Positions 2 through 63,556 of a stretch of DNA of 64,000 nucleotides are shown one piece after another. The position numbers and the translations under genes were made by a program. Below the pieces are notes generated by a model. The model was given only the letters and a program-made list of their open reading frames with translations. It searched no databases and was not told where the DNA came from. Within the stretch, counting starts at the first letter, position 1. Every line of letters starts with the position of its first letter. This stretch comes from Knoellia flava TL1 (lineage in GTDB: Bacteria; Actinomycetota; Actinomycetes; Actinomycetales; Dermatophilaceae). The DNA lies in NCBI RefSeq assembly GCF_000768675.1, contig NZ_AVPI01000007.1, positions 1 through 64,000 of the forward strand, given 5' to 3'.

Positions 2-463
2 GCTGCCGCGGGCGCCGCTGCGGCTGGGTCCGGTGGGGCCGCGCGCTCCGTCCCGCCACCGCGCCGCCCCGACCCGAGGTATGCGGCACCGGAGGCCGAG
101 GGCCTCGGTGAGACCGCGGCATACCCACCGGCGAAGCCGCCGACCAAGCCGCGCCGGACCAACCCGGCGGACCGGCCGTGGCTCGACGTCGACGGAGAGC
201 GCTACCCGCTCATGGGCGCGATCACCGTCCTCGGCCGCGACGACAGCGCCGACATCATCCTCGACGACCCGGGAATCTCGCGTCGGCACAGCGAGATCCG
301 CGTGACCCAGGACGGCCCGCACACCGTGGCGACGATCCGCGACCTCGGGTCGACCAACGGCACCTTCGTCAACGGCGAGCCCGTGACGAGCGAGCACCTC
401 GAGTCCGGCGACCGCATCACGGTGGGTCGCACGTCAGTCACCTACCGGGCCGGGCGCAAGTGA
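2..463 (+). CDS. fhaA: FHA-domain protein FhaA, C-terminal part (cut by window start)
   Basis: The reading frame is open from base 2, so the N-terminus lies outside the window. The visible part is a Pro/Ala-rich linker followed by a C-terminal forkhead-associated (FHA) domain from about base 170. It carries the phosphothreonine-binding signatures GRDDSADI, SRRHSEI and the LGSTNGTFVNG loop. FHA domains bind phosphothreonine; in mycobacteria FhaA binds phosphorylated PknB and MviN to control peptidoglycan synthesis. It heads the fhaA-fhaB-pstP-rodA-pbpA-pknB cluster, which supports the assignment. The upstream FhaA N-terminal domain cannot be checked here. Confidence 0.85.
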   Translation, partial: AAAGAAAAGSGGAARSVPPPRRPDPRYAAPEAEGLGETAAYPPAKPPTKPRRTNPADRPWLDVDGERYPLMGAITVLGRDDSADIILDDPGISRRHSEIRVTQDGPHTVATIRDLGSTNGTFVNGEPVTSEHLESGDRITVGRTSVTYRAGRK

Positions 464-475
464 GCGCCGGAAGCC

Positions 476-1003
476 ATGAGTGAGCTCACCATCACCGTCA
501 TGCGCCTCGGGCTGCTCGTCGCGCTCTGGGCGTTCGTCATCGCCGTCGTCGGCGTCCTGCGCGGCGACCTCTACGGCACCCAGGTGACGCCCCGTCGCGC
601 CGCTGCGCCTCGCGGCAACACCCCCCGGCCGGCCGCTCGGGGGAGCGCCGCGTCCGTGCCCGCCGAGCAGCGCCCGGTCGGCCGCCGCATCAACGCGCGG
701 TCGGCGAGCCGCGACCCCAACCACCTGCGCGTCATGAGCGGCCCGCTCGCCGGCACGAGCCTGCCCCTGCGCGAGGCCGGGATCCTCATCGGCCGCAGCC
801 CCGAGTCGGCGCTCGTCCTCGAGGACGACTTCGCCTCCGGGCGCCACGCCCGCATCTTCAAGGGTCCCGACGGCTGGGTCGTCGAGGACCTCGGCTCGAC
901 CAACGGCACCTTCATCGGTCCCCAGCGCCTCACGACCGCCACACCGGTGACGGCCGGCACCGAGATCCGGTTCGGGACGACCGTCGTCGAGCTGCGGAGG
1001 TAG
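476..1003 (+). CDS. fhaB: FHA-domain membrane protein FhaB (FipA-like)
   Basis: A 175-aa protein. It has an N-terminal hydrophobic helix at residues 8-28, a basic/Pro-Ala linker, then an FHA domain at about 80-175 with GRSPES, SGRHARI and DLGSTNGTF. The single membrane anchor with cytosolic FHA domain matches FhaB/FipA, which links Ser/Thr kinase signalling to the division apparatus. The start at ATG 476 lies 13 nt after the fhaA stop. The next gene starts 3 nt after its stop, so co-transcription is likely. Function is from family and context. Confidence 0.88.
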   Translation: MSELTITVMRLGLLVALWAFVIAVVGVLRGDLYGTQVTPRRAAAPRGNTPRPAARGSAASVPAEQRPVGRRINARSASRDPNHLRVMSGPLAGTSLPLREAGILIGRSPESALVLEDDFASGRHARIFKGPDGWVVEDLGSTNGTFIGPQRLTTATPVTAGTEIRFGTTVVELRR

Positions 1004-1005
1004 CC

Positions 1006-2403
1006 GTGGCCATCGCGTTCCACTTCGCCGCCCGCTCCGACGTCGGGATGGTGCGGACCAACAACGAGGACAGCGGGTATGCCGGCCCGCACCTCCTCGC
1101 GATGGCCGACGGCATGGGCGGCCACGCCGGTGGCGACGTCGCCTCGTCCACCGTCCTCGGCGCCCTCGTCCCGCTGGACGGCGAGTCGTTCTCCGGCGCC
1201 GACGCGACCCAGGCCCTGCTGCGCCGGATCACCGCCGCCAACGCCGAGCTCGGTCAGATGGCGCAGGACGACCCCGACCTCGAGGGCATGGGCACGACGC
1301 TCATCGCGATCCTGCGGGCGCGTGACAAGCTCGTCCTCGCCCACATCGGCGACTCGCGCGCCTTCGTCGTCCGCGACGGCCAGGTCAGCCAGATCACCAA
1401 GGACCACAGCTTCGTCCAGTCGCTCGTCGACGAGGGCAGGATCACCGCCGAGGAGGCGTCGACCCACCCGCAGCGCTCGCTCGTGACGAGGGTCCTCACC
1501 GGCGCCGAGGGCGAGGAGCCCGACGTCGTCGTGCGCCGGGCGGTCGTCGGCGAGCGCTACCTCATCTGCTCCGACGGCCTGTCCGACTACGTCGCACGCG
1601 ACACCATCGACGAGGTCCTCACCACCGAGCGCCGCCCCGGCGAGTGCGCCGAGCGGCTCGTCCAGCTCGCGCTGCGCGCCGGCGCCCCCGACAACGTCAC
1701 CGTCGTCGTCGGCGACGTCGTCGACCTCACCAAGGGTCCCGTGCCGAGCGACTCGCCCCAGGTCGTCGGTGCCGCCGCGGCCATCCGGCGCCACACCCGG
1801 CCGATCCCGGTGACCCCGGCCGAGAAGGCCGCCGCGCTGTCGCAGGAGGCCAGGGGTGCGACCGACGACGACCTCCACCTCGCCGACGAGGGACCCCGCA
1901 GCCGCACGGCCACGCTGCTGCGCGGGGTCGGCGCGGCCGTCCTCGCCGTCGTCCTCCTCGTCGGTGGTGGCTATGCCGCCTACGCGTGGACGCAGGCGCA
2001 GTTCTACGTCGGCGTCCGCGAGGGCCGCGTCACCGTCTTCAAGGGCGTCGACCAGACGATCGGGCCGATCAGCCTGTCTAGCCCCGAGACGATGAGCGGC
2101 ATCGTCGTCGAGGACCTGCCCGACTTCTACCGCGGCCAGCTTGCGCGCGGCATCACGATGAACACCCGCTCCGACGCCGCCGCCCTCGTCCGCAACCTCG
2201 AGGTGCAGGCCGGGGCGTGCCGCTACGCGAAGTCGCAGGGCCGCGACTGCGCGACCGTCCCGTCGAACTGGACGACCCCGACCCCCACCCCCACCCCGAC
2301 GCCGACCCTCTCGGGCCCCTCGGCGAGCGTGCCCGGAGCGACCCCGTCGCCCAGCGCCCCCGTCACCGGGTCGCCGGGACCGAGCGTCAGCCCCAACGCA
2401 TGA
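1006..2403 (+). CDS. pstP: PP2C-type Ser/Thr protein phosphatase PstP
   Basis: A 465-aa metal-dependent phosphatase that dephosphorylates PknB and its substrates. The cytosolic PP2C domain (about residues 1-240) shows the metal-site motifs TNNEDS, ADGMGGHAGG, GDSRAF, CSDGLSD and DNVTVVV. A juxtamembrane stretch leads to one transmembrane helix at about 303-328. After it come a small extracellular domain and a Thr/Pro/Ser-rich tail. The start is GTG 1006, just after the fhaB stop. The stop overlaps the rodA start by 4 nt (ATGA), indicating translational coupling. Confidence 0.93.
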   Translation: MAIAFHFAARSDVGMVRTNNEDSGYAGPHLLAMADGMGGHAGGDVASSTVLGALVPLDGESFSGADATQALLRRITAANAELGQMAQDDPDLEGMGTTLIAILRARDKLVLAHIGDSRAFVVRDGQVSQITKDHSFVQSLVDEGRITAEEASTHPQRSLVTRVLTGAEGEEPDVVVRRAVVGERYLICSDGLSDYVARDTIDEVLTTERRPGECAERLVQLALRAGAPDNVTVVVGDVVDLTKGPVPSDSPQVVGAAAAIRRHTRPIPVTPAEKAAALSQEARGATDDDLHLADEGPRSRTATLLRGVGAAVLAVVLLVGGGYAAYAWTQAQFYVGVREGRVTVFKGVDQTIGPISLSSPETMSGIVVEDLPDFYRGQLARGITMNTRSDAAALVRNLEVQAGACRYAKSQGRDCATVPSNWTTPTPTPTPTPTLSGPSASVPGATPSPSAPVTGSPGPSVSPNA

Positions 2404-3782: not shown

Positions 3783-5236
3783 ACCAGCCGATCCGCCGCC
3801 TCTCCTTCGTCGTCGCCCTGCTCTTCGCCTCGCTGCTCGTCTCGACGACCCTCATCCAGTTCGTCTGGGCCAAGGACCTCAACGCCCGGCCCGACAACCG
3901 GCGCACGCTGCTCAGCACCTACGCCCGCGAGCGCGGCCAGATCCTCGTCGGCGACACGGCCATCGCGAAGTCGGTCCCGGTCGACGACGAGTACAAGTGG
4001 CTGCGCACCTACCCGGGCAAGACGGCATACGCGCACGTCACCGGCTACTACTCCTTCTACGGCGCGGGCGGCGGCCTCGAGCAGGCCGAGAACGGGCTGC
4101 TCTCCGGCAGCAGCGACAAGCTCGCGTTCCGCCGGGTCTCGGACTTCTTCACCGGTCGCAAGACCGCCGGCGCGAGCCTCGAGCTCACCATCGACGCCGC
4201 GGTGCAGCAGGCGGCGATCAAGGCCCTCGACGGGCGCAAGGGCGCCGCGGTCGCGGTCAACCCGTCGACCGGCGAGATCCTCGCGATGGTGAGCAATCCG
4301 ACCTACGACCCGTCGCCGCTGTCGTCGCACAACCTCGCGCAGGTCGACGCGGCCTACAAGAAGCTCAACGGCGACCCGGCCAAGCCGCTCGTGAACCGCA
4401 CCATCGGCGGCGACCTCTACCCGCCGGGGTCGACGTTCAAGATCGTCACGGCCGCCGCAGCGCTCTCGAGCGGCCGCTTCGCGCCCGACACCGTCCTCCC
4501 CGGGCCGGCCGAGCTCGACCTGCCGCAGACGACCGTCGGCCTGCCCAACTTCGGCGACCGCTCCTGCGGGCCGGACGACAAGACGACCTTCCTGCACGCC
4601 ATGGAGATCTCGTGCAACAGCGCGTTCGGCTACCTCGGGCTCGAGCTCGGCGCCGACGCGCTGCGTGACCAGGCGGCGAAGTTCGGTGTGGGCGACCAGC
4701 TCTCGGTCCCGATGCGGGTCACGCCGAGCTCGGTCCCGGCCGAGCTCAACCCGCCGCAGCTCGCGCAGTCGGCCGTCGGCCAGTACGACGTGCGCGTCAC
4801 CCCGCTCCAGGTCGCGATGTTCAGCGCCGGCGTCGCCAACCGCGGCATCGTCATGAAGCCGCACCTCGTGCGGTCGGTGCTCTCGAGCGACCTCAGCGTC
4901 ATCGAGCGCGCCGAGCCCGAGGAGCTCTCGCAGGCCGTGAGCCCCGAGGTCGCCGCCCAGCTCACCGAGATGATGGAGGCCGTCGTCGAGAGCGGCAGCG
5001 GCGAGCCCGCGCAGGTCGACGGCGTCCGCGTCGCCGGCAAGACCGGCACCGCCGAGACCGACCGCGTCTCCCGCGCCCACGCGTGGTTCACCGGCTTCGC
5101 ACCGGCCAACGACCCCCAGATCGCCGTCGCGGTCGTCGTCGAGAACGGCGGCGACCCCGACAGCGAGGCCCGCGGAGGTGGCGCCGTCGGTGGCCCCATC
5201 GCCAAGGCGATGATCGAGGCGGGGCTGAAGAAGTGA
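3779..5236 (+). CDS. pbpA: Class B penicillin-binding protein PbpA (transpeptidase)
   Basis: A 485-aa peptidoglycan cross-linking enzyme. An N-terminal membrane anchor (about 8-28) is followed by a short PBP dimerisation region and the transpeptidase domain. The three active-site motifs are present: S218-T-F-K221, S278-C-N280 and K421-T-G. The protein is short for a class B PBP but matches the actinobacterial PbpA type. The start overlaps rodA (ATGA) and the stop overlaps pknB (GTGA), so polymerase, transpeptidase and kinase are made together. Confidence 0.93.
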   Translation: MNQPIRRLSFVVALLFASLLVSTTLIQFVWAKDLNARPDNRRTLLSTYARERGQILVGDTAIAKSVPVDDEYKWLRTYPGKTAYAHVTGYYSFYGAGGGLEQAENGLLSGSSDKLAFRRVSDFFTGRKTAGASLELTIDAAVQQAAIKALDGRKGAAVAVNPSTGEILAMVSNPTYDPSPLSSHNLAQVDAAYKKLNGDPAKPLVNRTIGGDLYPPGSTFKIVTAAAALSSGRFAPDTVLPGPAELDLPQTTVGLPNFGDRSCGPDDKTTFLHAMEISCNSAFGYLGLELGADALRDQAAKFGVGDQLSVPMRVTPSSVPAELNPPQLAQSAVGQYDVRVTPLQVAMFSAGVANRGIVMKPHLVRSVLSSDLSVIERAEPEELSQAVSPEVAAQLTEMMEAVVESGSGEPAQVDGVRVAGKTGTAETDRVSRAHAWFTGFAPANDPQIAVAVVVENGGDPDSEARGGGAVGGPIAKAMIEAGLKK

Positions 5237-7116
5237 CGGACGTGACGCGCGAGGAGCCCGTCCTGCTGGGGGGACGTTACGAGGTCGGCGAGCTGATCGG
5301 GCGCGGCGGCATGGCCGAGGTCCACCTCGGCCACGACACCCGTCTCGGACGACCCGTCGCGATCAAGATGCTCCGCAGCGACCTCGCCCGCGACCAGTCC
5401 TTCATCAAGCGGTTCCGCCGCGAGGCGCAGTCGTCGGCCGGGCTCAACCACTCCTCGATCGTCGCGGTCTACGACTCCGGCGAGGACCACACCATCGAGT
5501 CGGGTGGCGCCAGCGTCGCCGTCCCCTACATGGTCATGGAGTACGTCGAGGGCCGCACCCTCCGCGAGGTCCTCAGCTCCGAGGGCAAGCTCAAGACCGA
5601 GGAGGCGCTGCGCGTCACCGAGGGGGTCCTCGACGCGCTCGGCTACAGCCACCGCATGGGTATCGTCCACCGCGACATCAAGCCGGCCAACGTCATGATC
5701 AGCGACGACGGCTCGGTCAAGGTCATGGACTTCGGCATCGCCCGCGCGATCGCCGACACCGCCGCGACGATGACCCAGACGCAGGCCGTCATCGGCACGG
5801 CGCAGTACCTCTCGCCCGAGCAGGCCCAGGGCCAGACCGTCGACGCGCGCTCGGACCTCTACTCCGCCGGCTGCATGCTCTACGAGCTGCTCACCGGCCG
5901 ACCACCGTTCATCGGCGACAGCCCGGTCGCCATCGCCTACCAGCACGTCGGCGAGCAGCCGATCCCGCCGTCGGCCCTCGAGGACTCCGTGCCCGACGAG
6001 CTCGACGCCGTCGTCCTCCACTCGCTCGCCAAGCCGCGCGAGGACCGCTACCAGGACGCCGCCTCGTTCCGCAGCGACCTCCAGCGCGTCCGCCTCGGCC
6101 GACCGGTGAGCCGCGAGGCGACCGCGTCGCTCGCCGCCCTCGCCGCCGGTGCCGCGCCGACGCTCGCGAGCGCCGAACCGACCCAGGTGTATGCCGTCCA
6201 GACCCGCCCCCCGGAGGCCGCGGCTGCCGCTGCGCCCCCGGTCGGTCCGGTCACCTCGACCTTCCCGGCCGCGGTTTCGCGCGACGAGCGCCCGCGCCAC
6301 CGCGGGCGCCGGGCGGCGTTCATCACGGTCGCGCTGCTCACGGCCGCAGCGCTGCTCGCGTTCGGGCTCATGCAGTACCGAGCCATGCAGGCCGAGGCCG
6401 CCAAGGTCTCCGTGCCACCGGTCGAGGGCAAGCCGGTGCCGACCGCGCTCGCCGACCTGCGCAAGGTCGGGCTCGACGACGTCGTCCAGAGCACCGCGCG
6501 CAGCGACAGCGTGCCCGAGGGCTCCGTCGTCTCGCAGACCCCCGAGCCCGGTGTGCGCGTCGACCCGTCGGAGACGACCGTGGCCCTCGTCGTCTCGACC
6601 GGGCCGAGCTCGGTGCCCGTCCCCCAGCTGGCGGGCATGACCGTCGCCGAGGCGACCGCGGCGCTCGCGAAGCTCAAGCTCACGGTCGGCAAGACCGAGA
6701 AGGTCAACACCTCCGAGCAGCCCAAGGACCGCGTCGTCGGGTCGACACCCAAGGCCAACGAGTCGGTGGAGCCGGGCACCGTCGTCGACCTCAGCGTCGC
6801 GACCGGTCTGGTCGCCGTGCCCAAGCTGACGACGATGACCCAGGACGAGGCCTCGGCGGCGCTGCTCGCCATCGGGCTCAAGCCCAGGACGACCTACCGC
6901 CAGACGTCGCAGGCGGCCGAGGGCACGGTCATCGCACAGGAGCCCGACGAGGGCGAGCTCATCGCGCTCGGGTCCGAGGTGACGATCCGCGTCGCGCAGA
7001 AGCTGCCGCCTCCGCCGCCCACGCCCACCGCCACGCCGACTCCGAGCCCGACGCCGTCGGCGAGCGCCACCCCGACCGGCACGCCGACCCCGTCGATCAC
7101 CCTCCCCGGCCCCTGA
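5233..7116 (+). CDS. pknB: PASTA-domain Ser/Thr protein kinase PknB
   Basis: A 627-aa receptor kinase. The N-terminal kinase domain (about 15-275) has the Gly loop GRGGMAEV, catalytic Lys45, the HRDIKPAN loop near 146 and DFGIA near 166. One transmembrane helix lies at about 361-385. Three extracellular PASTA repeats (about 394-593) are known in this family to bind muropeptide/lipid II, and a Pro/Thr-rich tail ends the protein. GTG 5233 overlaps the pbpA stop and is the natural start. Mycobacteria carry pknA between pbpA and pknB; here that gene is absent and this is the only kinase in the cluster. Confidence 0.94.
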   Translation: MTDVTREEPVLLGGRYEVGELIGRGGMAEVHLGHDTRLGRPVAIKMLRSDLARDQSFIKRFRREAQSSAGLNHSSIVAVYDSGEDHTIESGGASVAVPYMVMEYVEGRTLREVLSSEGKLKTEEALRVTEGVLDALGYSHRMGIVHRDIKPANVMISDDGSVKVMDFGIARAIADTAATMTQTQAVIGTAQYLSPEQAQGQTVDARSDLYSAGCMLYELLTGRPPFIGDSPVAIAYQHVGEQPIPPSALEDSVPDELDAVVLHSLAKPREDRYQDAASFRSDLQRVRLGRPVSREATASLAALAAGAAPTLASAEPTQVYAVQTRPPEAAAAAAPPVGPVTSTFPAAVSRDERPRHRGRRAAFITVALLTAAALLAFGLMQYRAMQAEAAKVSVPPVEGKPVPTALADLRKVGLDDVVQSTARSDSVPEGSVVSQTPEPGVRVDPSETTVALVVSTGPSSVPVPQLAGMTVAEATAALAKLKLTVGKTEKVNTSEQPKDRVVGSTPKANESVEPGTVVDLSVATGLVAVPKLTTMTQDEASAALLAIGLKPRTTYRQTSQAAEGTVIAQEPDEGELIALGSEVTIRVAQKLPPPPPTPTATPTPSPTPSASATPTGTPTPSITLPGP

Positions 7117-7167
7117 CGGGGGCACACGGCATACGGAGGCGTTGGCCACGCCCCCAGCGGAGGGAAG

Positions 7168-7924: not shown

Positions 7925-8127
7925 GAGGGCTCCGGGGTCGGGAAGGATGGGTATGCCGTGGCACCAGTATCCGCACCGACGGTCGTCTCGTCGTAGGGCA
8001 GCCACGATGCGACGAGCGGGAAGAGCCACTCGAAGCACACGAAGACCACGAGCGCGAGGAGCAGGAGGAGCAACAGGACGCGCACGACGACGGGACCCGG
8101 CAGCGCGCGCCAGAGTGCGGCATACAT
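7921..8127 (-). CDS. Small membrane protein between sortase and pabA
   Basis: A 68-aa protein with one strongly hydrophobic helix (VRVLLLLLLLALVVFVCFEWLF is the core, about residues 15-36) followed by an acidic/Thr-Pro tail. It overlaps pabA by 4 nt (GTGA) and follows the sortase gene in the same direction, so it is part of the DUF881-sortase-small protein-pabA run. No function is recognised. Position and coupling suggest a real conserved actinobacterial gene. Confidence 0.65.
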   Translation of the reverse strand: MYAALWRALPGPVVVRVLLLLLLLALVVFVCFEWLFPLVASWLPYDETTVGADTGATAYPSFPTPEPS

Positions 8128-8140: not shown

Positions 8141-8830
8141 TCACGACGGCTCGCTGGACGGCGCGGTCCCGGGCGCGGGCAGGTCGTCGACGAGCGAGAT
8201 CTGCTCGCGGGTGCGGGTCCGCGTCAGCTCGGCGTGCACGACGTAGCGCTGCTTCGCGCTGAACCTCGGGTGGCAGGAGGTGAGCGTGAGCATCGCCCTG
8301 GTCGGCTTCGCGGCACGGTCGCCGGGGACGGGGGCGATGACCTCGGACTCCCAGGGGCGGACGATCGTGTGGCTGCGCACGGCATACACGCTCTCGCCGG
8401 CAACGGTCTCGACGATGATCTCGTCACCCGGGCGCAGGCTCGCGATCTCGGCGAGCGGCTTGCCGTAGGTCGTGCGGTGACCGGCGATGGCGAAGTTGCC
8501 GACCTCGCCGGGCCCGGCGGTGCCGACGTAGTGGCCGAGGCCGCGGGCGAGCTCCGCGGCCGACGTGCCCTCGACGAGCGGGCGCTCGTAGTCGCTCCCG
8601 AAGCGGGGGATGCGCACGACGGCGAACGCGTCACCACCGATCCGGGTGGCGGTCGCGCTGCCCGGGTCGCGCGAGGCGTCGACGAAGTCCTGCTCGAGGC
8701 TCGTCACGGTGCGGGCCTGCGCCCGGTCCGAGACGACGTCTGTCCAGAAGAGCTGCCACACGACGAAGAGCAGGACGAGCCCGCCCAGGGTGAGGAGCAG
8801 CTCGCCGAGGACCCCGACGGCACGCCTCAC
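8141..8830 (-). CDS. srtE: Class E sortase
   Basis: A 229-aa membrane-anchored cysteine transpeptidase. An N-terminal helix (about 7-28) is followed by the sortase beta-barrel. The catalytic triad is visible: His118 (AGHRTTYG), Cys186 (TLTSCHP) and Arg195. Class E enzymes occur in actinobacteria that lack class A housekeeping sortase and recognise LAXTG-type signals. GTG 8830 overlaps the stop of the upstream DUF881 gene (GTGA), which fixes this start. No obvious sortase substrate is encoded within the window. Confidence 0.9.
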   Translation of the reverse strand: MRRAVGVLGELLLTLGGLVLLFVVWQLFWTDVVSDRAQARTVTSLEQDFVDASRDPGSATATRIGGDAFAVVRIPRFGSDYERPLVEGTSAAELARGLGHYVGTAGPGEVGNFAIAGHRTTYGKPLAEIASLRPGDEIIVETVAGESVYAVRSHTIVRPWESEVIAPVPGDRAAKPTRAMLTLTSCHPRFSAKQRYVVHAELTRTRTREQISLVDDLPAPGTAPSSEPS

Positions 8831-9958: not shown

Positions 9959-10008
9959 CGTTGCTCCCGTATGCCGTCCCCTCGCCTCGCGCGCGCCGTT
10001 CGCCACCG

Positions 10009-10188: not shown

Positions 10189-11118
10189 TCAGAGGAGTGA
10201 GCTGGTGACGGCGTACTTGACGACGGTGAGCACGAGCAGCAGCAGGGCGATGGCCCCGAGACCCACCCAGTGGACGCCGAAGCTCGCGGGCCGGGTGCCC
10301 GGGCCGTCGGGTCGGCGACCGAGGTAGGCGAACACCGCCGCGCAGGCCGCGCCGACGACGAGCCCGCCGAGGTGGGCCTGCCAGGCGATGCCGGGGACGA
10401 CGAACCCGAGGACGGCGTTGATGCCGATCGTCGCGACCATCGGGCCCGCGGACCGGCCGAGCCGGCGCTGGAGGACGAGGAAGGCACCGAAGAGCCCGAA
10501 CACCGCACCCGAGGCGCCCACCGCGGCGGTCTCCCACGAGCCGTAGTCGCCGTTGCGCATGTCGTCGAAGGTCGCGGGGAAGGACAGCAGGAGATACATC
10601 ACCGAGCCGCCGAACGCGCTGAGCAGGTAGAGCGCGGCGAACCGGGCCCGGCCGAGCATCGGCTCGAGGTACTGGCCCATAACCCAGAGCGCATACATGT
10701 TGAAGGCGATGTGCAGGAAGTTCCGCGGCGAGTGCGCGAAGGCGGACGTGAGGAAGCGCCACGGCTCCGTGTCGCCGAGGTAGGGCACGAAGGCGACCTC
10801 GTTGGTGAGCCGCGGGTTGGCCATCTGCCCGAGGAAGACGAGGACACAGATGCCGATGATCGTCGTCGTCACGAGCGGCCGCTCGCCGACGCCGGCCATG
10901 TCACCGCCGAAGACCGTGCGGCCCTGGCGGACCGACTTCTGCCCCTCGCGCACGCAGTCGACGCACTGGACGCCGACGGCCGCCGGGCGCTGGCACTCGG
11001 GGCACACGGGTCGGCCGCACCGCTGGCAGCGCACGTAGGAGACCCGGTCGGGGTGACGCGGGCAGACCGGCACCTCGTCGGGAGTGCCGGTCTGTCCGTA
11101 TGCCGTCGGCTCGCTCAT
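10189..11118 (-). CDS. Rhomboid family intramembrane serine protease with N-terminal zinc-ribbon-like region
   Basis: A 309-aa membrane protease. The N-terminal 60 residues hold a Cys/His cluster (CPRHPDR, CQRCGRPVCPEC, QCVDC) resembling a B-box/zinc ribbon. A six-helix rhomboid domain follows, with Asn140 in HIAFNMY, catalytic Ser203 in GASGAVFG and catalytic His249 in AHLGG. It cleaves transmembrane substrates inside the bilayer; the substrate is unknown. The ATG at 11118 is chosen because it places the Cys cluster at the N-terminus as in actinobacterial relatives. It lies in the conserved ppiA-crgA interval. Confidence 0.92.
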   Translation of the reverse strand: MSEPTAYGQTGTPDEVPVCPRHPDRVSYVRCQRCGRPVCPECQRPAAVGVQCVDCVREGQKSVRQGRTVFGGDMAGVGERPLVTTTIIGICVLVFLGQMANPRLTNEVAFVPYLGDTEPWRFLTSAFAHSPRNFLHIAFNMYALWVMGQYLEPMLGRARFAALYLLSAFGGSVMYLLLSFPATFDDMRNGDYGSWETAAVGASGAVFGLFGAFLVLQRRLGRSAGPMVATIGINAVLGFVVPGIAWQAHLGGLVVGAACAAVFAYLGRRPDGPGTRPASFGVHWVGLGAIALLLLVLTVVKYAVTSSLL

Positions 11119-11812: not shown

Positions 11813-11968
11813 GCCCCCACTGTATGGGGACCGCGGCGGTGCCCCGAGGGCGCGGTCGGGACGGGGCCGGCATACCGAGGTGCGGTTGGGGGCGACCCCT
11901 AGGTGCCGTGACGTGGGTAAACAGTGTTTGATGGAAGGAACCCGATCGTCCACCGATAGGAGAATCTC

Positions 11969-12856: not shown

Positions 12857-12894
12857 GAGGCGGTATGCCGGGTGCCCACCCGGCATACCGCCTC
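12857..12894 (+). terminator. Terminator built from inverted GTATGCC copies
   Basis: Perfect 18-bp arms (12857-12874 and 12877-12894) with a 2-nt loop are followed by CGTCTTTGTC. Each arm contains one copy of the heptamer GTATGCC/GGCATAC that recurs across the window. It terminates the Ala/Lys-rich protein gene. Confidence 0.85.
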
Positions 12895-12934: not shown

Positions 12935-14053
12935 ATGTCATCGTCGACGTCGCCCCGGCCCGAGCCCCTCGTCGACACCGGCCTGCGGACCGAGCCGGAC
13001 CGCGCGTGGGTGCGCGAGGCGATCCGCAAGCTGCGTGCCGACGCGACGAGGACCTCGGACACGCACCTCGTCAAGGTGCACCTGCCGGGGTGCGGACGCG
13101 TCGACCTCTATCTCAAGGACGAGTCGACCCACCCGACCGGGTCGCTCAAGCACCGGCTCGCCCGCTCGCTCTTCCTCTACGGGCTGTGCAACGGTGTCAT
13201 CGGCCCACGGACGACGGTCGTCGAGGCCTCCTCGGGGTCGACGGCAGTGAGCGAGGCGCACTTCGCGCGGATGCTCGGCGTGCCCTTCGTCGCGGTCATG
13301 GCGTCCTCGACGTCACCGGCGAAGATCGCCCTCATAGAGCGCGAGGGCGGCCGGTGCCACCTCGTCGACGACCCGACGGCGGTCTACGACGAGGCTCGGC
13401 GGCTGGCCGACGAGGCCGGCGGGGTCTACCTCGACCAGTTCAGCAACGCCGAGCGAGCGACCGACTGGCGCGGCAACAACAACATCGCCGAGTCGATCTT
13501 CGAGCAGATGTCGATGGAGGAGCACCCGGTGCCGACGTGGATCGTCGTCGGCGCGGGGACCGGTGGCACGTCGGCGACGATCGGCCGCTTCGTCCGCTAC
13601 CAGGCGCTCGACAGCAAGGTCTGCGTCGTCGACCCCGAGCACTCGGCGTTCCTGCCGGCGTGGCAGGGCGACGGCGAGGCGCGGCTCGAGTCGTCGCGGA
13701 TCGAGGGCATCGGGCGGGCGCGACTCGAGCCGTCGTTCCTCCCGCTCGTCGTCGACCGGATGCTCGGCGTGCCCGACTGCGCCTCGATCGCGGCGATGCG
13801 ATTCCTGCGCGAGCGCACCGGGATCTCGGCGGGCCCCTCGACCGGCACCAACATCTACGGCGCCCTCCGGCTCGCCGCCGAGATGCAGGCCGCGGGCGAG
13901 CGGGGCTCGATCGTCTCGCTCGTCTGCGACCGCGGCGACCGCTACGACGAGACCTACAACTCGGACGCCTGGGTGGCCGAGAAGGGGCACGACCTGCAGC
14001 GGTATGCCGGTGTCCTGGCGTCCGCGTGGGACGACGGCGTCTGGCTCGGGTGA
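12935..14053 (+). CDS. PLP-dependent cysteine synthase-fold enzyme (Cds1-like)
   Basis: A 372-aa fold-type II PLP enzyme. The Schiff-base lysine is probably Lys72 in [11 protein letters not shown]. The substrate loop [10 protein letters not shown] and the phosphate-binding [13 protein letters not shown] are present. It resembles mycobacterial Cds1 (L-cysteine desulfhydrase, Rv3684 type), which releases sulfide from cysteine. Biosynthetic cysteine synthase activity is possible, but no serine acetyltransferase is near. The start at ATG 12935 removes a low-complexity extension; GTG 12926 is an alternative. Confidence 0.78.
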
Positions 14054-42160: not shown

Positions 42161-42435
42161 AGGCGGCCTCGTCGCCACCGTTCTGCGACGGCGAGGGCGG
42201 AGTACTTATGGCTTCCAGTAGCCTCCGGTGCACCAGGCGCCAAGGGAGGTCATCGCTATGGGTTCGGTCGCCGTCGACCAGCTACGTTCAGACGGAAGCG
42301 TCTTCGTGGCGTCGGCGTGGCCTAGCACTTCCACGGACACATCTGAAGCCCGACGAAAACATCATGAAAACAATGTTGCGGAATCGTTCATTCTCAAAGT
42401 TGCTCTTGCTTCGAATACTCCTTGAGAACATTGGC
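42161..42435. other. Lower-GC intergenic region between methyltransferase and 390-aa gene
   Basis: These 275 bases separate two convergent genes. The right part is noticeably AT-richer (AACATCATGAAAACAATG is typical). No supported gene or strong hairpin is seen. Confidence 0.5.
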
Positions 42436-43608: not shown

Positions 43609-44108
43609 TTCTGCAGGCTACAAGGCCATGAGTGTCAGTTCCTCCACCCCACCGGCAGATCGGCGAGTACGGCGGTGCCACGCTGACACTCAGGCGTGGA
43701 CGTTTGGCTGCGCGATTGGGACCAAGAGTGCTCTGGCTAAGGCCGTCGCAGGTCAGTGGGTGGCCAAACTTGGTGCGCTGGCGCTGGTGTCGGCGGCGGC
43801 GTTACCGCATCTTCTGAACGGGCCTAGAACGAGGGGCGCTGACCTACAGAATGGCGGGGCCACTCACTGTGGTGGAGCCAAGGGGACTCGAACCCCTAAC
43901 CCCCTGCTTGCAAAATCCCCGAACCGGCTCCACGAGAGGGCGATTGAGCACGCGGTTGGTCAAAGTGGGGTACGCGATGACGCCGGTTTCGTGAGGCACT
44001 GCAGTACTTCGCTGGGGTACGGACCTGAGGGCCTCCCGGTCTCAACCTCAGGACGCCGCGGATCGGCTGTGACCCCTGGGTCAGCAGTAGGCATTCAATG
44101 CCTGCGTC
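43609..44108. other. Non-coding stretch holding the left attachment repeat
   Basis: About 500 bases without a supported gene. It holds a 10-bp inverted repeat (43629-43638 and 43683-43692) and the 44-bp copy of the tRNA-Ala 3' half (43871-43914). The rest up to the HNH gene shows no coding signal. Confidence 0.6.
43871..43914 (-). repeat. Left attachment repeat (attL-like), partial tRNA-Ala
   Basis: These 44 bp are identical to 55684-55727, the 3' half of the intact tRNA-Ala up to the anticodon loop. The similarity stops right after CAAA. Without a 5' half it cannot make a tRNA. Confidence 0.9.
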
Positions 44109-44822: not shown

Positions 44823-45014
44823 ACGAAGATCTTGACCGACGCGGACAGGAACCGGCGAGGGGCTCGCCGGTCACGGGTCCACGCTCCGCGAAAAGCTCAG
44901 ACGGGTCCGTCCGCCCGCCGCCCCACGGCCACTGCTGAAGTCTGAACCGAAGGGAACACACGGGCAACCAGCGATGAACGTGATGTGTGGGGGCCAGGGG
45001 GTTGGGCTCCTCTG

Positions 45015-46223: not shown

Positions 46224-46361
46224 GGTGCTCTGAGCGTATTGCGCCGATCCGACAGACGTGACGGAACGGAGGACGGCCGAGGGTGACGCATGGAAGGCTG
46301 TCAATGGGCGCCTCGGGGTGACGGACGGGCGCAGTTGGTGTACCTGACGATGGGATGACTG

Positions 46362-52347: not shown

Positions 52348-52718
52348 CGCCGACCGCAGTCATGGATCGGCCCGGGAGGCCCGTCTCTCCAACGTCGAGG
52401 TCGAGAAGACCGCGGGAGGACGGATGGACCAGCGCGTCTCGTGGGCCGCGAGAACGACGGCTACTGGCACGGCCCTGAGCCAGTCGATCTGTCCGAGATG
52501 CTGACGACCCTAGCTGGGGCACTTGAGGCGAGTCACTCTGCGTGACCCTTCCGTCCGGCCGTGCTGGGACCGGGAAGGGTGCAAGGGGCGCGCGTGGCCG
52601 AAGGGCACTGGTGGGCTCGAATGGATACGGTCGTCTCATGCCTCGTGAGTACGGCCAAGAGTTCCCCGAGCGTCCACTGATGTCGACGCTTTCCGACCTA
52701 CTCGGGATCGCGCACTTC
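52348..52718. other. Gap between AddB-like gene and IS3 element
   Basis: These 371 bases hold no securely supported gene. A 34-codon frame (52441-52545) and a 27-codon frame (52638-52721) that ends at the IS junction are present. The latter could be the start of a gene cut by the insertion. Neither has a recognised product. Confidence 0.45.
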
Positions 52719-52782
52719 TGACCTGTCCTGACCTTTCCGGACACCGATCTTGAGGGGATGATCCTCTCGGGAAGGAGTCAGG

Positions 52783-53121
52783 ATGCCTGCACCGAAGTCG
52801 CCGGAGTTCCGGCAGCGTGCTGTGGAGTTGACCCGTTTGCGGGAGAAGCCGATCGCGGCGATCGCGAGGGATCTGTCGATCAGTGAGTCGTGTCTGCGTC
52901 GGTGGATGGACTTGGCCGACGTCGAGGAAGGGCACAAGGAGGGCCTGACCAAGGACGAGCGCGCCGAGCTGGTTCGGCTACGACGCGAGACTCGGGTCCA
53001 GGCGATGGAGATCGAGATCCTCAAGCGCGCCAGCGCTTACTTTGCCCGGGAGAACGTCCTCCCAAAAGAGGGTTCCGGCTCGTCCACCAGGTCGCCGGCG
53101 ACGGGTTCCCCGTCGCGGTGA
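52783..53121 (+). CDS. IS3-family transposase OrfA
   Basis: A 112-aa DNA-binding protein. HTH region EFRQRAVELTRLRE, IAAIARDLSISESCLRRW is followed by a leucine-zipper-like helix (LVRLRRETRVQAMEIEILK). FARENVLPK is the usual IS3 OrfA ending, before the frameshift. It binds the IS ends and, fused with OrfB by frameshift, makes the active transposase. The last residues after PKEG are the unshifted tail. Confidence 0.9.
   Translation: MPAPKSPEFRQRAVELTRLREKPIAAIARDLSISESCLRRWMDLADVEEGHKEGLTKDERAELVRLRRETRVQAMEIEILKRASAYFARENVLPKEGSGSSTRSPATGSPSR
53062..53068 (+). other. Probable programmed -1 frameshift site
   Basis: In the orfA frame the codons are CCA AAA G, and with the preceding C this allows both tRNAs to re-pair one base back (CCC AAA). 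The shifted frame continues directly into orfB (AGA GGG TTC). Confidence 0.65.
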
Positions 53122-53936
53122 CGTGCCGGGTGCTGAGGGTGTCCACGTCGGGCTACTACGAGTGGTGCACTCGTGGCCCAAGCGCCCGCGACGTCGAGGA
53201 CGCCTACCTGCTCGATGCGATCGTCGCGATCCACGCCGATGCTCGAGGCACGTACGGGGTGCGGCGGGTCCACGCCGAGCTCACCCTGGGTCAGGCCCGC
53301 CGGTGTGGCCGGCAGCGGGTGGAGCGGTTGATGCGGCTGCACGGATTGCAGGGGGTGCACCGGCGCCGCTGGCGGCACGCGCAGCGGTCCGAGGCCGTCT
53401 TCGAGGACCGGGTCCAGCGCAGGTTCACCGCTAACTCACCGGACCGGTTGTGGGTCACCGACATCACTCAGCACCGCACCGGCGGGGGCTGGGTGTACTG
53501 CGCTGCCGTGATCGACGTGTACTCCCGCCGCTGCGTCGGCTGGTCCATCGCCGATCATCTGCGCACCGAGCTGGTCGTCGACGCCTTGGACATGGCCCGC
53601 TGGCAGCGCAAACCGGTCGGCACCACCGTCCACAGCGACCGCGGGAGCCAGTACACGTCTTGGCTGTTCGGGCAGCGGATGCGTCAGGCCGGGCTGATGG
53701 GGTCGATGGGCAAGGTCGCCTGCGCCTACGACAACGCCCTCATGGAGTCCTTCTTCGGCTCGATGCAGATCGAGCTCCTCGACCGCAGGAGCTGGAACAC
53801 CCGGGCCGAGCTCACCGCGGCGATCTTCGAATGGATCGAGGCCTGGTACAACCCTCGCCGCCGGCACTCCGCCCTGGCCTACCGGTCCCCGGTCGCGTTC
53901 GAAGCTCTTCACAAGAGCGCCACCCCGGCGGCATGA
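53067..53936 (+). CDS. IS3-family transposase OrfB (DDE integrase)
   Basis: About 289 residues in the -1 frame relative to OrfA. The HTH_21-like region GTYGVRRVHAELTL precedes the rve integrase core. The DDE residues are in LWVTDITQH (first D), VHSDRGSQYTS (second D) and NALMESFFGSMQ (E, 35 residues after the second D). NPRRRHSALAYRSP is the usual ending. The frame is intact, so transposition competence is possible. Independent initiation inside this frame is not ruled out. Confidence 0.9.
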   Translation, partial: RGFRLVHQVAGDGFPVAVTCRVLRVSTSGYYEWCTRGPSARDVEDAYLLDAIVAIHADARGTYGVRRVHAELTLGQARRCGRQRVERLMRLHGLQGVHRRRWRHAQRSEAVFEDRVQRRFTANSPDRLWVTDITQHRTGGGWVYCAAVIDVYSRRCVGWSIADHLRTELVVDALDMARWQRKPVGTTVHSDRGSQYTSWLFGQRMRQAGLMGSMGKVACAYDNALMESFFGSMQIELLDRRSWNTRAELTAAIFEWIEAWYNPRRRHSALAYRSPVAFEALHKSATPAA

Positions 53937-53976
53937 TCACCACACCAGAACCGTCCGGGAAAGTCAGGACAGGTCA

Positions 53977-54493
53977 CGGCGACATGTGGGCCGACTGCGG
54001 CCTGGTCTTCACGACCCGGCTCGGCGATCCGGTCGACCCACGCAACTTCCACCGCGACTTCAAATTGCGAGCAGCGAAGGCCGGCGTGCCGATCGTCCCG
54101 ATTCACTCGACTCGGCGGACCTGCGCCAGCCTCCTCGTTGCCCTCGACGTTCACCCGCGCGTCGCGATGGCCGTCCTCCGGCACAGTCGCATTGCTCTCA
54201 CGATGGGGGTCTACTCCCAGGTGTCAACGCAGTCGACTCGCGACGCATTGCGCCAACTGGGGGCCACCTCACAACTAGCTAACTCGAGCTCGCTCCACAA
54301 GAGGTCGCACCCGTTCGCAAAGCGTCCTCAACTCCTCAACGAGCCGAGAATCAGCATCGCCGGCGAACTGAAGGACGGCTTCGGCACGCCCCAGGGCGGC
54401 TTGCGCACGTTCGTAGAGGACCTGGTCATCCTGCTCTTGACCAGCGCCCAGCTCGTCAGCCGCGCGCCCAAATGCGAGCACGTCATGTCGTGA
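53977..54493 (+). pseudogene. int: Tyrosine recombinase (island integrase), C-terminal remnant
   Basis: Only the catalytic C-terminus remains. WADCGLVFTTRLG, then HSTRRTCASLL (H-x-x-R box), LRHSRIALTMGVYSQV with the box II His/Arg and nucleophile Tyr. The first catalytic Arg and the DNA-binding domains are gone; the IS3 right end directly abuts the fragment. The frame also runs past the usual end into sequence antisense to the next gene. It lies about 1.2 kb from the intact tRNA-Ala, the expected place for the island's integrase. It is almost surely inactive. Confidence 0.85.
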
Positions 54494-54727
54494 ACGACGA
54501 GCCAGACCTTCGAACTGCTCGACCATCGCCTTGGCTCGCTTGTAGTCACGATCGGCAAGCCGTCGGCATGTCTCCGAGCAGTAGTCCTTCTTCCGGCCGC
54601 GTCCCGCGGTCTGACGGAACTCCTTGCGACACATGGGTCGAGCGCAGAAGTCTGGCAGGTCGAAGCCCTCTGACATCGAGGTGCTCTCCGACCCAAGGCT
54701 TGTCACTCGCAGAGCAGCCTCATCCAT
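54275..54727 (-). CDS. Small zinc-finger-like island protein
   Basis: Up to 150 aa from ATG 54727; ATG 54676 is an equally possible start. The core DFCARPMCRKEFRQTAGRGR followed by KKDYCSETCRR has four Cys as CxxxxC...CxxxC, a likely zinc-binding motif. It is followed by a long charged helix (KRAKAMVEQFEGLARRSR and beyond). Such short zinc-finger/helix proteins occur beside integrases on plasmids and islands, but no exact function is known. It overlaps the 3' end of the integrase remnant on the other strand. Confidence 0.6.
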   Translation of the reverse strand: MDEAALRVTSLGSESTSMSEGFDLPDFCARPMCRKEFRQTAGRGRKKDYCSETCRRLADRDYKRAKAMVEQFEGLARRSRHDVLAFGRAADELGAGQEQDDQVLYERAQAALGRAEAVLQFAGDADSRLVEELRTLCERVRPLVERARVS

Positions 54728-55086
54728 GCGTCCTCCATAAGTCGCGCGAAAAACCAACGCTGATGCCTCCATTTTCAGCTGCATCCGATCAAATCTCGAT
54801 GCCGACACGCGTAGTGGTTCGTATGTAATTCGCGCGATAATCGTGCAGAAGCGCCTTGCAGGTGGCGCGCAAGCTACGCGCTGACGGCGTGTCGACCCGA
54901 TCACGTCGGTGGCGTCTGGTCCCATAGAGGGGACGCGAGGTTGCGTCAGAGAAAAGATCGAGCGCCCGGTCTTGGAGGACCGGGCGCTCGGGCACGCGGA
55001 TGGTGATCCACATGCGGGTTGTGTCTCTGCATCAGATCACCTCCTCGTGCCACTGACAAGTAGGCGCGAGGAGGAGGTGAAACCAG
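54728..55086. other. Non-coding region with a hairpin, upstream of small island genes
   Basis: These 359 bases contain no supported gene. A perfect 12-bp hairpin lies at 54960-54989. Near the right end, ATCACCTCCTCGTGCC and its near-inverse GCGCGAGGAGGAGGTGA could hide the ribosome-binding site of the next gene. Confidence 0.5.
54960..54989. terminator. Hairpin in island right end
   Basis: 12-bp perfect arms (54960-54971 and 54978-54989) with a TTGGAG loop. Either a terminator or a leader hairpin. Confidence 0.55.
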
Positions 55087-55224
55087 ATGGCCCGGAACAG
55101 CAAGCAGACGAGCGCGAAGGCGGCGACAGCCGCCAGCCGGACGCTCGCGAGCAAGGCGGCATCTAAGGCTGCGAAGTCAGCCGCCGCATCCGCGCTGTCA
55201 CAGACCCCCAAGCGGAGTCGGTGA
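55087..55224 (+). CDS. 45-aa basic Ala/Lys/Ser protein of the island
   Basis: ATG 55087 has a strong GAGGAGGAGG Shine-Dalgarno sequence 8 nt upstream. The product starts MARNSKQTSAKAATAAS and ends in QTPKRSR; it is highly basic and predicted helical. Short proteins with this opening are common on plasmids and islands, often next to DUF3892 genes as here. Function unknown; nucleic-acid binding is plausible. Confidence 0.65.
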   Translation: MARNSKQTSAKAATAASRTLASKAASKAAKSAAASALSQTPKRSR

Positions 55225-55230
55225 CGGTCT

Positions 55231-55256
55231 GGCCCGGGGCCTCTGGGCCCCGGGCC
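55231..55256 (+). terminator. Terminator after the 45-aa gene
   Basis: Perfect 11-bp GC arms (55231-55241 and 55246-55256) with a TCTG loop, 6 nt after the stop. Confidence 0.7.
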
Positions 55257-55290
55257 ATCCTCACTAATTGATGCAGAGAAGGAGGGCCTC

Positions 55291-55566
55291 ATGGCCATTC
55301 GCTTTACCCATATCCACCTCAGCGGTGGAACCCAGCACCAGCACATCACCCATCTGTGGTGGGTGAACCCCGGCACGGGAGCAACGGGTGACAACACTCG
55401 TGCGGCACTCGTCGCGTGGATCGAGCAGGGCAACGCAGCCTTCGTCGGAACGGGAGCTGACCGCGTTCAGGTCGGTGTTGTTGACCCGCCGTCTGGCCCC
55501 AAGTACCTGCGAACGTATGCCGATCGCCAGTGGACCAACAACCTCTTGGCGTTGCCGCGTAAGTAG
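55291..55566 (+). CDS. DUF3892 domain protein
   Basis: A 91-aa protein covering the whole DUF3892 domain, opening FTHIHLSGGTQHQHI and HLWWVNPG, and ending VVDPPSGPKYLRTYADRQ with NNLLALP. Members are short beta-rich proteins common in plasmids and genomic islands; function is unknown. GAAGGAGGG precedes the ATG. It contains the only GTATGCC motif in the island (55515), near the tRNA end. Confidence 0.82.
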   Translation: MAIRFTHIHLSGGTQHQHITHLWWVNPGTGATGDNTRAALVAWIEQGNAAFVGTGADRVQVGVVDPPSGPKYLRTYADRQWTNNLLALPRK

Positions 55567-56112: not shown

Positions 56113-56146
56113 GTATGCCGGCCGCTCTCGGGAGCGGCCGGCATAC
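56113..56146 (-). terminator. Terminator built from inverted GTATGCC copies (gyrase operon side)
   Basis: Perfect 15-bp arms (56113-56127 and 56132-56146) with a TCGG loop. The stem base is GTATGCC on one side and GGCATAC on the other, as in the 12857 hairpin. It lies downstream of the DUF3566 gene. Confidence 0.8.
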
Positions 56147-59565: not shown

Positions 59566-59740
59566 CAGTTCCCTTGTCTCTCAATACAGTTCGCAAACGG
59601 CGATGTATGCCGTGAAAGTCGGTTCGCCGGCCTGAGCGCCTCTTGCGTCCGGCAAGATGACGGCATAGCCACCACAGTTGCGGACGCAAGGCGAGTTGGG
59701 AGGTGAGGTGCCTCCGCGACCCAGCTGACCGGCATACGCA
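59566..59740 (-). other. gyrB-gyrA intergenic region with inverted repeat
   Basis: 175 bases. Arms CTTGCGTCCG (59642) and CGGACGCAAG (59681) flank 29 nt, and copies of the GTATGCC motif lie at 59605 and 59731. The gap suggests gyrA has its own promoter or a processing hairpin. Confidence 0.5.
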
Positions 59741-62198
<2,458 letters not shown>

Positions 62199-62921
62199 TC
62201 AGCGGCCGGTGGTGAAGAAGGTCCAGGTACCGTCCTCGGCGATGCCGACGCGGTAGCCGGTGTAGCCACCGTCGTCCTGGCGCATCTTCGTGGCCTGGCT
62301 CCTGGTGAGGAGGCCCGCCGCGACGACCTTGTCCCACTCGGCGTCGTTCTGGGCATACTGCTCGGAGAAGACCCGCGGCTGGATCGTGCCGTCGAAGGAC
62401 TCGGTCGGGGGCATCGACAGGACGATGGCGAGCGCCACGTAGCTCGACCCGGCCTTGCTCGTGAAGACCGAGGCCGGAGGCTGGTCGCCGGCGAGCCCGG
62501 TGGAGTCGGCGCGAGCGAGCGAGACGAGGGTCGCGGAGTCGCACGCCCGTGCGGCGGTCGAGATCTTCCTGGCCTTGGCAGCCGCGGCGGTCGACATGCC
62601 GGTGACGTCGGCCGCGCGCACCTTGGCCGCGGCGCACGCGGGGGTGCGCGTCGGGGTCGGTGTGGGCCTCGCAGCCGTCGGCGTGACCGACGGTGAGGGG
62701 GTCGGGGTGGCCGACGGCGTCTCGGTGACGGTGGGGGTCGGGCTCGGCGTCTCGCTCGGGATCTCCGACGACGACTCTGAGACGCTCGGGCTCGGCGACG
62801 TCGAGGGGGCGGCCGTGGGCTCGTCGTCGGAGCAGGCCGAGAGCGCGAGCGTGGCCAGCAGCAACGGAGCGAGCACGCGCGGAAGCCGGCGGGTGGACAG
62901 GACGAGACCCCGGGACGTCAT
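62199..62921 (-). CDS. Putative lipoprotein with Ser/Thr/Pro-rich linker
   Basis: A 240-aa protein. The lipoprotein signal has the lipobox LSAC (Cys30). A Ser/Thr/Pro linker (about 31-92) precedes a C-terminal globular domain of about 145 residues. That domain has CDSATLVSLARADSTGLAGD, PRVFSEQYAQNDAEWDKV and RVGIAEDGTWTFFTTG. No family was recognised. It is exported and membrane-anchored by inference. Confidence 0.72.
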   Translation of the reverse strand: MTSRGLVLSTRRLPRVLAPLLLATLALSACSDDEPTAAPSTSPSPSVSESSSEIPSETPSPTPTVTETPSATPTPSPSVTPTAARPTPTPTRTPACAAAKVRAADVTGMSTAAAAKARKISTAARACDSATLVSLARADSTGLAGDQPPASVFTSKAGSSYVALAIVLSMPPTESFDGTIQPRVFSEQYAQNDAEWDKVVAAGLLTRSQATKMRQDDGGYTGYRVGIAEDGTWTFFTTGR

Positions 62922-62981
62922 GCGGTCACTGTAACGGGAGTGACTGATGTGACTCAGTGCGACAAGCCGTGGTTCACACCC

Positions 62982-63039
62982 CCCGACTTCTTGCCCGGAT
63001 GCGACAGCCGAGCGTGGCGCAGTTGGGCAAGAAGTCGGG
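62982..63039. repeat. Palindromic intergenic repeat, family A copy 2
   Basis: Perfect 15-bp arms (62982-62996 and 63025-63039) with GACTTCTTGCCC. It lies after the thioesterase stop on the minus strand and before the lipoprotein start. Confidence 0.75.
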
Positions 63040-63057
63040 CGTTGGGGTGGTGGTGAG

Positions 63058-63504
63058 CTATGGCTGGGCGGCGAGCGTGCGCTCGACGACGGCGCGGACG
63101 TCGTCGGGGATCGGGACCGAGTGGCGGCCGGCGCGGTCGATGTAGACCTGCGCCCACAGCCCGTGCGCGGCGATGTCGTCGCTGCCGTCGGCGAAGAGCC
63201 CGAACGCGAAGGTCACGCTCTTGGTGCCGACTCGCTCGACCCGCACGCCCACGTCGACCGGGTGTGGGTAGGCCAGCTCGGCGTAGAACCGGCACGACGA
63301 CTCAGCGACCACTCCCAAGGTCGACGTCGTCGTCTCGTCGGTGCCGGTCTCGCGGATGAGCCAGGCGTTGAGCACCGAGTCGAAGAGCTCGTAGTAGACG
63401 GCGTTGTTGAGGTGGCCGTACATGTCGTTGTCGGCCCAGCGCGTGGTCACCCGCTGCATCTCCGGGAAGTCGGCACGGGTCAGCGAGCGCGGGTCGACGG
63501 TCAT
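63058..63504 (-). CDS. Acyl-CoA thioesterase, 4HBT hotdog family
   Basis: A 148-aa single hotdog domain. The signature TRWADNDMYGHLNNAVYYELFDS contains the catalytic Asp of the 4-hydroxybenzoyl-CoA thioesterase type (quoted in parts: TRWADNDMYGHLNN). It probably hydrolyses an acyl-CoA; substrate unknown. ATG 63504 gives the typical short N-terminus. It lies between two family A palindromes. Confidence 0.86.
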   Translation of the reverse strand: MTVDPRSLTRADFPEMQRVTTRWADNDMYGHLNNAVYYELFDSVLNAWLIRETGTDETTTSTLGVVAESSCRFYAELAYPHPVDVGVRVERVGTKSVTFAFGLFADGSDDIAAHGLWAQVYIDRAGRHSVPIPDDVRAVVERTLAAQP

Positions 63505-63556
63505 GCGCCGAGCGTAGTTGCGCCGGTCTTGAGACCGGACGTGCCGGCATACGTGG

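Follow-up and report, generated by a model that had tools for sequence, protein, structure and literature searches.

Putative DNA uptake sequence GTATGCCG and its dialects in Gram-positive bacteria of the family Intrasporangiaceae

Results

Copies of the word in the window

We analyzed the first 64,000 nucleotides of contig NZ_AVPI01000007.1 from Knoellia flava TL1 (hereafter the window), which carry, among others, genes for a PP2C phosphatase, a penicillin-binding transpeptidase, and a Ser/Thr kinase, a mobile/defence island, and tRNA-Ile/Ala genes. Outside the island, a short word, the 8-mer GTATGCCG, recurs in both orientations (Table 1). The original prediction, made from the sequence alone, had described the heptamer GTATGCC/GGCATAC with about 44 copies; our count was the same (23 GTATGCC and 21 GGCATAC), and all 15 positions quoted there match. 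The enrichment stood as well and had been understated: about six copies had been expected by chance, whereas dinucleotide-preserving shuffles (n = 100) gave a mean of 2.2 and a maximum of 7. The base after GTATGCC, described as mostly G, is G in 42 of the 44 copies, and alignment on the word revealed little that is fixed besides GTATGCC and this G. About one-third of the copies are indeed intergenic (14/44, based on our own gene prediction); the non-coding share, put at about one-tenth in the prediction, is 18.3% for the window and 10.5% without the 36–55.5 kb island. The span between 35,829 and 55,515, which the prediction had missed, is free of the motif.

Genome-wide enrichment

The genome to which the window belongs (G000; 3.56 Mb, 94 contigs) contains 2541 copies of GTATGCCG, distributed near-equally over the strands (1268 + 1273). 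Enrichment persisted under a third-order Markov model, a check named in the original prediction, which was applied here to a 410-kb sample of G000 (the window plus further stretches) rather than to the whole genome: GTATGCC occurred 315 times (31.7 expected), GTATGCCG 311 times (15.5 expected), and GTATGCCGT 181 times (2.5 expected), with the expectation itself being inflated by the presence of the word. The top over-represented words from k = 5 to 11 in this sample were overlapping pieces of GTATGCCGTCC. Density of GTATGCCG was 745 per Mb in G000 compared to 19 per Mb in relatives (420 kb of genera g27, g35, and g46). The 24 one-base neighbours of GTATGCCG, summed, were not enriched as a group (617 per Mb in G000 vs. 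569 per Mb in the same relatives), the exception being CTATGCCG, which was about 4-fold enriched; the neighbour GTACGCCG was halved. Beyond the 8-mer, the flank holds little information apart from a T at the next position (59% in G000, 37% in the sister genome G007). GTATGCCG is an all-or-none word in its behaviour.

Placement relative to genes, codons, and strands

In 437 kb of G000, 92 of 326 GTATGCCG copies were intergenic by our own gene predictions (28.2% vs. 14.6% of bases), and G007 exhibited a weak excess (51/251; 20.3% vs. 17.2% of bases). Retrained gene prediction yielded 95/326 for G000 and 41/267 for G007, corresponding to density ratios of 2.55 and 1.17. Of the 234 genic sites of G000, 136 are in sense orientation (119 in the Tyr-Ala frame) and 98 in antisense orientation (78 in the Ala-Tyr frame). 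The word is thus not confined to one reading frame, a possibility raised in the original prediction, yet two of six frames hold most of the genic sites. The rarer codons that it was said to use, TAT for Tyr and GCA for Ala, were borne out by codon-context counts in both genomes: in G000, TAT accounted for 119 of 135 Tyr codons in motif context (117/2112 elsewhere) and GCA for 78 of 115 Ala codons (760/16,240 elsewhere), and G007 agreed (87/96 for TAT and 67/95 for GCA in motif context). The word overrides synonymous codon choice at Tyr and Ala, against codon usage, so that codon usage as its cause, already disfavoured in the original prediction, is rejected on this test.

Of the 34 pairs of copies at most 60 bp apart (among 577 sites in G000 and G007), 29 had opposite orientations and five the same orientation (p = 4e-5). 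Of the 29 opposite pairs, 18 lie between predicted genes, and several form perfect stems, including two in the window (12,863 and 56,113). With regard to replication, 115 copies were leading and 115 lagging in G007 (19 of 20 sampled stretches, the first left out; origin set by GC skew), i.e., the word has no polarity.

Conservation at orthologous sites

The window's gene for a penicillin-binding protein shares 79–86% identity with five Knoellia loci and with Janibacter sp. HTCC2649, and 57% with Janibacter indicus. The Knoellia alignments compared 1–16 kb of the window with six named loci (five Knoellia and HTCC2649), and the com region with that of six congeners. In these, 98 of 127 motif sites were kept, with gapped sites counted as lost, compared to 3072 of 9330 (33%) for words of the same composition. 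Counted without gaps, 97 of 113 were kept (generic 8-mers 19–44%). Where the amino acid was kept, TAT was retained in 46 of 48 cases in the motif and in 16 of 34 elsewhere, and GCA in 25 of 33 and 54 of 200, respectively. Judged from these alignments, long-term conservation of the word is demonstrated for Knoellia only.

Dialects across the family

We counted words in 186 whole genomes from 53 genera of the Intrasporangiaceae (Dermatophilaceae in GTDB), in which GTATGCCG ranges from 7 to 4,724 copies. Outside the family, GTATGCCG does not exceed 180 copies in any of 362 genomes of 19 other families (from an order-wide sample of 396), and in the richest of these the reversed control word is just as frequent. 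Several genera without GTATGCCG bear a word that is one base off, and four words are found in the family: GTATGCCG, GGATGCCG, GTACGCCG, and GCGAAGGGG. GGATGCCG reaches 2,099–4,480 copies in the seven genomes of g9, g15, and g51 (241–1,336 in other family genomes). Counts of GCGAAGGGG are 478–1,136 across all 16 g27 genomes and 1,304–1,941 across all three of g35, and do not exceed 124 in the remaining 167. For GTACGCCG, 1,125–4,185 copies occur in g3 (2/3 genomes), g5 (2/4), g6, g7, and g34; counts elsewhere are mostly in the low hundreds, but about 1,000 in G146 and 1,463 in G083, which makes the contrast smaller. The excess in G083 is doubtful as a dialect, as other TAC words are equally enriched there. 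Both GTATGCCG and GGATGCCG are abundant in two genomes of g15 (G044 and G045).

With thresholds chosen after the counts were seen, at least one word was assigned to 143 of 186 genomes and 40 of 53 genera (GTATGCCG 107, GGATGCCG 9, GTACGCCG 10 including the doubtful G083, GCGAAGGGG 19; two genomes double-classed); two g46 genomes pass the GGATGCCG threshold narrowly and are doubtful calls. Named loci of 22 kb each gave 14–20 copies of GTATGCCG in Knoellia (five loci), 16 of GGATGCCG in Humibacillus sp. DSM 29435, and 16 of CGAAGGGG in Janibacter indicus. Spelling can also differ at the same site: among the aligned sites listed, G083 has GTACGCCG at three of three GTATGCCG positions of G085 and at four of ten of G084. 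Intergenic densities are 2.72/kb for GGATGCCG in G178 (0.12/kb in G000), 0.45/kb for GTACGCCG in g3 (0.03/kb in G000), and 2.59/kb for GCGAAGGGG in g35; a clear excess of intergenic over genic density is seen only in G000, g35, and G178.

Samples of 20–100 kb from g11, g12, g13, g16, g28, g29, g37, g38, g46, and g53, and from G019 (g5) and G016 (g4), revealed no word of a strength comparable to the four. The lone species G016 (g4) and G113 (g41) are at background in genera otherwise rich in GTATGCCG; these natural losses are useful for a receptor search. In G082 (g31; L143–L144), CGATGCGG is over-represented (32 vs. 6.9 expected in 40 kb), a possible further dialect. G090, which uses GCGAAGGGG, also holds the palindrome TCCCCGGGGA (L046, L054–L057; 30 vs. 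0.3 in 100 kb, both strands counted). Part of the motif signal in the first 20 kb of G090 was traced to an inverted duplication; further stretches and whole-genome counts then bore out GCGAAGGGG in g35. An apparent motif of G088 was rejected as a local array (L045, 13.8–19.6 kb), in which ACTTGTTT is repeated eleven times in the same orientation with flanks that resemble each other, and which is AT-rich within a GC-rich genome.

Motif-free islands

Gaps between copies in the 410-kb sample of G000 do not exceed 5.0 kb, except for 19.7 kb in the window, 19.35 kb on contig 1, and 8.1 kb adjoining the latter, and all three have 65–67% GC compared to 71% for the sample. The window island, one end of which adjoins tRNA genes, encodes (36772–54493) a cytosine (C5) methylase that closely resembles DruM2 from Druantia systems, a UvrD/GajB-like helicase, an MzaA-like protein on the other strand, a 924-aa open reading frame (ORF) without Pfam match, an rve integrase core, which we read as IS3-type, and a weak match to an integrase that stays below the cut-off. 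The second island (contig 1, 30.9–57.7 kb; L010 10928–20000 and L011 1–17700) starts near tRNA-Thr and contains another rve integrase core. These two islands, the only two examples, indicate that the word is missing from recently acquired DNA. The second island also encodes a protein with an OmpA domain and a 1475-aa ORF whose WD40-like match falls far short of the cut-off.

Competence genes

Competence genes, for which the original prediction had proposed a search, are present in the genome: comEA (SLBB+HHH) and comEC are adjacent on contig 50 of G000, and contig 41 carries a Tad/Flp operon encoding Flp, TadE, RcpC, a TadZ-like ATPase, a TadA-type ATPase, and a T2SSF protein. ComEA, ComEC, and Tad are transformation genes of Micrococcus luteus, according to excerpts from PMC4322843 and PMC12849477. 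PilM of type IV pili had no match in G000, and seven of the 186 family genomes matched (six over cut-off). The Flp pilin and ComEC were each considered as a gene explaining presence or absence of the word and were rejected, as neither tracks it.

Table 1. Copies of GTATGCCG and related features in the window.
Feature	Position	Strand
GTATGCCG copy	117..124	-
GTATGCCG copy in PP2C phosphatase gene	1077..1084	+
GTATGCCG copy in penicillin-binding transpeptidase gene	4023..4030	-
GTATGCCG copy in Ser/Thr kinase gene	6189..6196	+
GTATGCCG copy	7127..7134	-
GTATGCCG copy	7951..7958	+
GTATGCCG copy	8118..8125	-
GTATGCCG copy	8380..8387	-
GTATGCCG copy, intergenic by own gene prediction	9969..9976	+
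GTATGCCG copy	11098..11105	+
GTATGCCG copy	11868..11875	-
Inverted GTATGCCG pair, perfect 11-bp stem, intergenic	12863..12888	
GTATGCCG copy	14002..14009	+
GTATGCCG copy	14703..14710	-
GTATGCCG copy	18191..18198	+
GTATGCCG copy	21241..21248	+
GTATGCCG copy	21878..21885	-
GTATGCCG copy	23133..23140	+
GTATGCCG copy	23652..23659	+
GTATGCCG copy	25103..25110	-
GTATGCCG copy	25626..25633	+
GTATGCCG copy	25869..25876	+
GTATGCCG copy	27397..27404	+
GTATGCCG copy	27590..27597	-
GTATGCCG copy	28264..28271	-
GTATGCCG copy	30291..30298	+
GTATGCC then C, first of two in window	30652..30658	+
GTATGCCG copy	31479..31486	-
GTATGCCG copy	32224..32231	+
GTATGCCG copy	32496..32503	-
GTATGCCG copy	34967..34974	+
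GTATGCCG copy	35040..35047	+
GTATGCCG copy	35680..35687	-
GTATGCCG copy, last ahead of island	35822..35829	-
Motif-free mobile/defence island	35830..55514	
GTATGCCG copy, first past island	55515..55522	+
Inverted GTATGCCG pair, perfect 15-bp stem, -31.5 kcal/mol, intergenic, adjoins tRNA-Ile/Ala genes	56113..56146	
GTATGCCG copy	59605..59612	+
GTATGCCG copy	59730..59737	-
GTATGCCG copy	61706..61713	+
GTATGCCG copy	61996..62003	-
GTATGCC then C, second of two in window	62352..62358	-
GTATGCCG copy	63545..63552	-

Discussion

GTATGCCG is probably a DNA uptake sequence with dialects in Gram-positive bacteria, because a strict word on both strands, kept at the cost of codon choice, conserved within Knoellia, absent from two islands, and varying between genera in single-base dialects, matches what is described for Neisseriaceae and Pasteurellaceae (excerpts from PMC3630211 and PMC12616744). 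The analogy drawn in the original prediction is further supported by copy number, strand balance, and inverted pairs. Starting from the observed distribution, dialects, conservation within Knoellia, and presence of ComEA, ComEC, and Tad genes, we infer an uptake bias, a candidate receptor, and a spread by recombination. GTATGCCG would be a self-mark by which these actinobacteria, through their competence machinery, recognize free DNA. Double-stranded DNA bearing the word would be bound at the surface by a receptor, the most likely candidate being a minor pilin in the Tad/Flp competence pilus or one of its partner proteins; the DNA would then be passed to ComEA, pulled through ComEC, and recombined. 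As marked DNA would enter more often, recombination would spread and repair the word, which would be tolerated where synonymous codons or intergenic DNA permit and be missing from newly arrived islands. Drift of the receptor could have produced genera with spellings one base apart (GTATGCCG, GGATGCCG, and GTACGCCG); two genera (g27 and g35) have the unrelated word GCGAAGGGG.

Several observations weigh against an uptake sequence. ComEC is found in 180 of 186 family genomes, with or without the word, and the six genomes without a ComEC match, mostly incomplete drafts (58–95%), all bear GTATGCCG, five of them above threshold. Flp pilin family matches are present in 91 of 186 genomes, which do not include three motif-rich congeners of G000. 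Since PilM has no match in G000, one would not expect a type IV pilus with a receptor of the ComP type, although no search was aimed at ComP. Intergenic enrichment is 2–2.5-fold in G000, about 1.2-fold in G007, and not seen in samples of g9, g3, g34, and g27; 43 of 186 family genomes pass the thresholds for none of the four words; and one-mismatch copies are scarcer here than in Haemophilus. Outside Knoellia, GTATGCCG is kept only in two of nine sites in G084/G085 and four of eleven in G147/G146 (generic 8-mers about 20%), and in none of two in Janibacter indicus. Within g15 (G045 to G042), three of seven GGATGCCG sites are kept (generic 8-mers about 20%), and no GTATGCCG site among those listed stood as GGATGCCG. 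Loss is expected in some of the non-Knoellia pairs because they differ in dialect or density.

An unlikely alternative is that the word serves as a binding site of a chromosome-organizing or DNA-repair protein (a nucleoid protein, Chi-like, or KOPS-like) whose recognition differs by genus. The dispersal of the copies, their conserved position in Knoellia, and their lack in two islands would fit such a protein, dialect shifts could follow any DNA-binding protein, and the presence of competence genes does not track the word. However, replication-strand bias, a hallmark of Chi and KOPS, was not seen in 19 sampled stretches of G007, which speaks against the Chi/KOPS type of the chromosome-organizing motif that the original prediction had named in general terms, and close opposite-strand pairs able to form hairpins would be unexpected. 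We regard it as very unlikely that a conserved methylase targets the word and that its copies are retained as regulatory sites or as self-DNA marks. Self-marking would likewise account for the copies missing in islands, and the island of the window does encode a cytosine methylase; this enzyme, however, lies in motif-free DNA and matches DruM2 of defence systems, and restriction sites are as a rule avoided, not amplified about 40-fold.

The inverted pairs with their perfect intergenic hairpins could also suggest that the word belongs to intrinsic terminators or to a small mobile repeat. We consider this highly improbable, as close pairs are few among all sites, most copies are genic, and the conserved flank extends over only a base or two; any terminator use of inverted pairs looks secondary. 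Next to no credence is given to the word being a product of codon or dipeptide usage (Tyr-Ala and Ala-Tyr): although 197 of 234 genic sites of G000 fall into two of six frames, the preference for TAT runs against codon usage, and the word is at least as dense between genes (G000 and G007) and is found on both strands.

Self-specific DNA uptake by means of a genomic word was described for Neisseriaceae and Pasteurellaceae (excerpt from PMC12616744). An uptake sequence in the Intrasporangiaceae would likely represent a third, independently evolved self-DNA recognition for transformation, operating in Gram-positives via a Tad/Flp pilus, with at least four spellings in the family, two species with two spellings, and an all-or-none receptor under which hardly any one-mismatch sites remain. 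If true, this third case, from a distant phylum and with a different pilus, would allow one to ask why such codes evolve, how Tad pili bind DNA, and how a receptor changes its spelling in step with the genome. Natural transformability would then be suggested for many environmental actinobacteria in the family, and the word would supply a tag for their genetics. Our searches of the open-licence PubMed Central (PMC) literature turned up no paper on an uptake sequence in actinobacteria.

Comparison with known systems

Chi and KOPS are over-represented short oligomers of the core chromosome that are biased to one replication strand, whereas the word described here has no replication polarity (115 vs. 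115 in G007). The bases ATGCCG are shared by GTATGCCG and the AT form of the neisserial word, in which, in line with its name, AT precedes the 10-mer GCCGTCTGAA. This overlap may be chance, and no copy of the neisserial 10-mer (GCCGTCTGAA core) is present in 437 kb of G000. The Pasteurellaceae uptake signal sequence (USS) is unrelated in sequence, its 9-mer occurring once in the same 437 kb, and the word differs from it by an 8-base core, little flank information, and no one-mismatch excess except for CTATGCCG.

The DNA uptake sequence (DUS) of Neisseriaceae occurs on both strands with 943 to 4,265 copies, forms inverted pairs linked to terminators, and has eight dialects between species (excerpt from PMC3630211). 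GTATGCCG resembles it in its hundreds to thousands of copies on both strands, its inverted pairs, and its dialects; unlike the DUS with its ComP receptor, it is hosted by an actinobacterium without PilM match. The USS is likewise an abundant mark of self-DNA with inverted pairs as terminators (excerpt from PMC12616744), and an orientation bias in the reading frame was reported for it (excerpt from PMC2346458), comparable to the bias in G000 (136 sense and 98 antisense). As regards M. luteus, the term "uptake sequence" is absent from the main texts of PMC4322843 and PMC12849477. Transformation of this species depends on tad clusters, and it has homologues of ComEA/ComEC (excerpt from PMC4322843); like this Flp/Tad-dependent system, K. 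flava is an actinobacterium with ComEA, ComEC, and tad genes.

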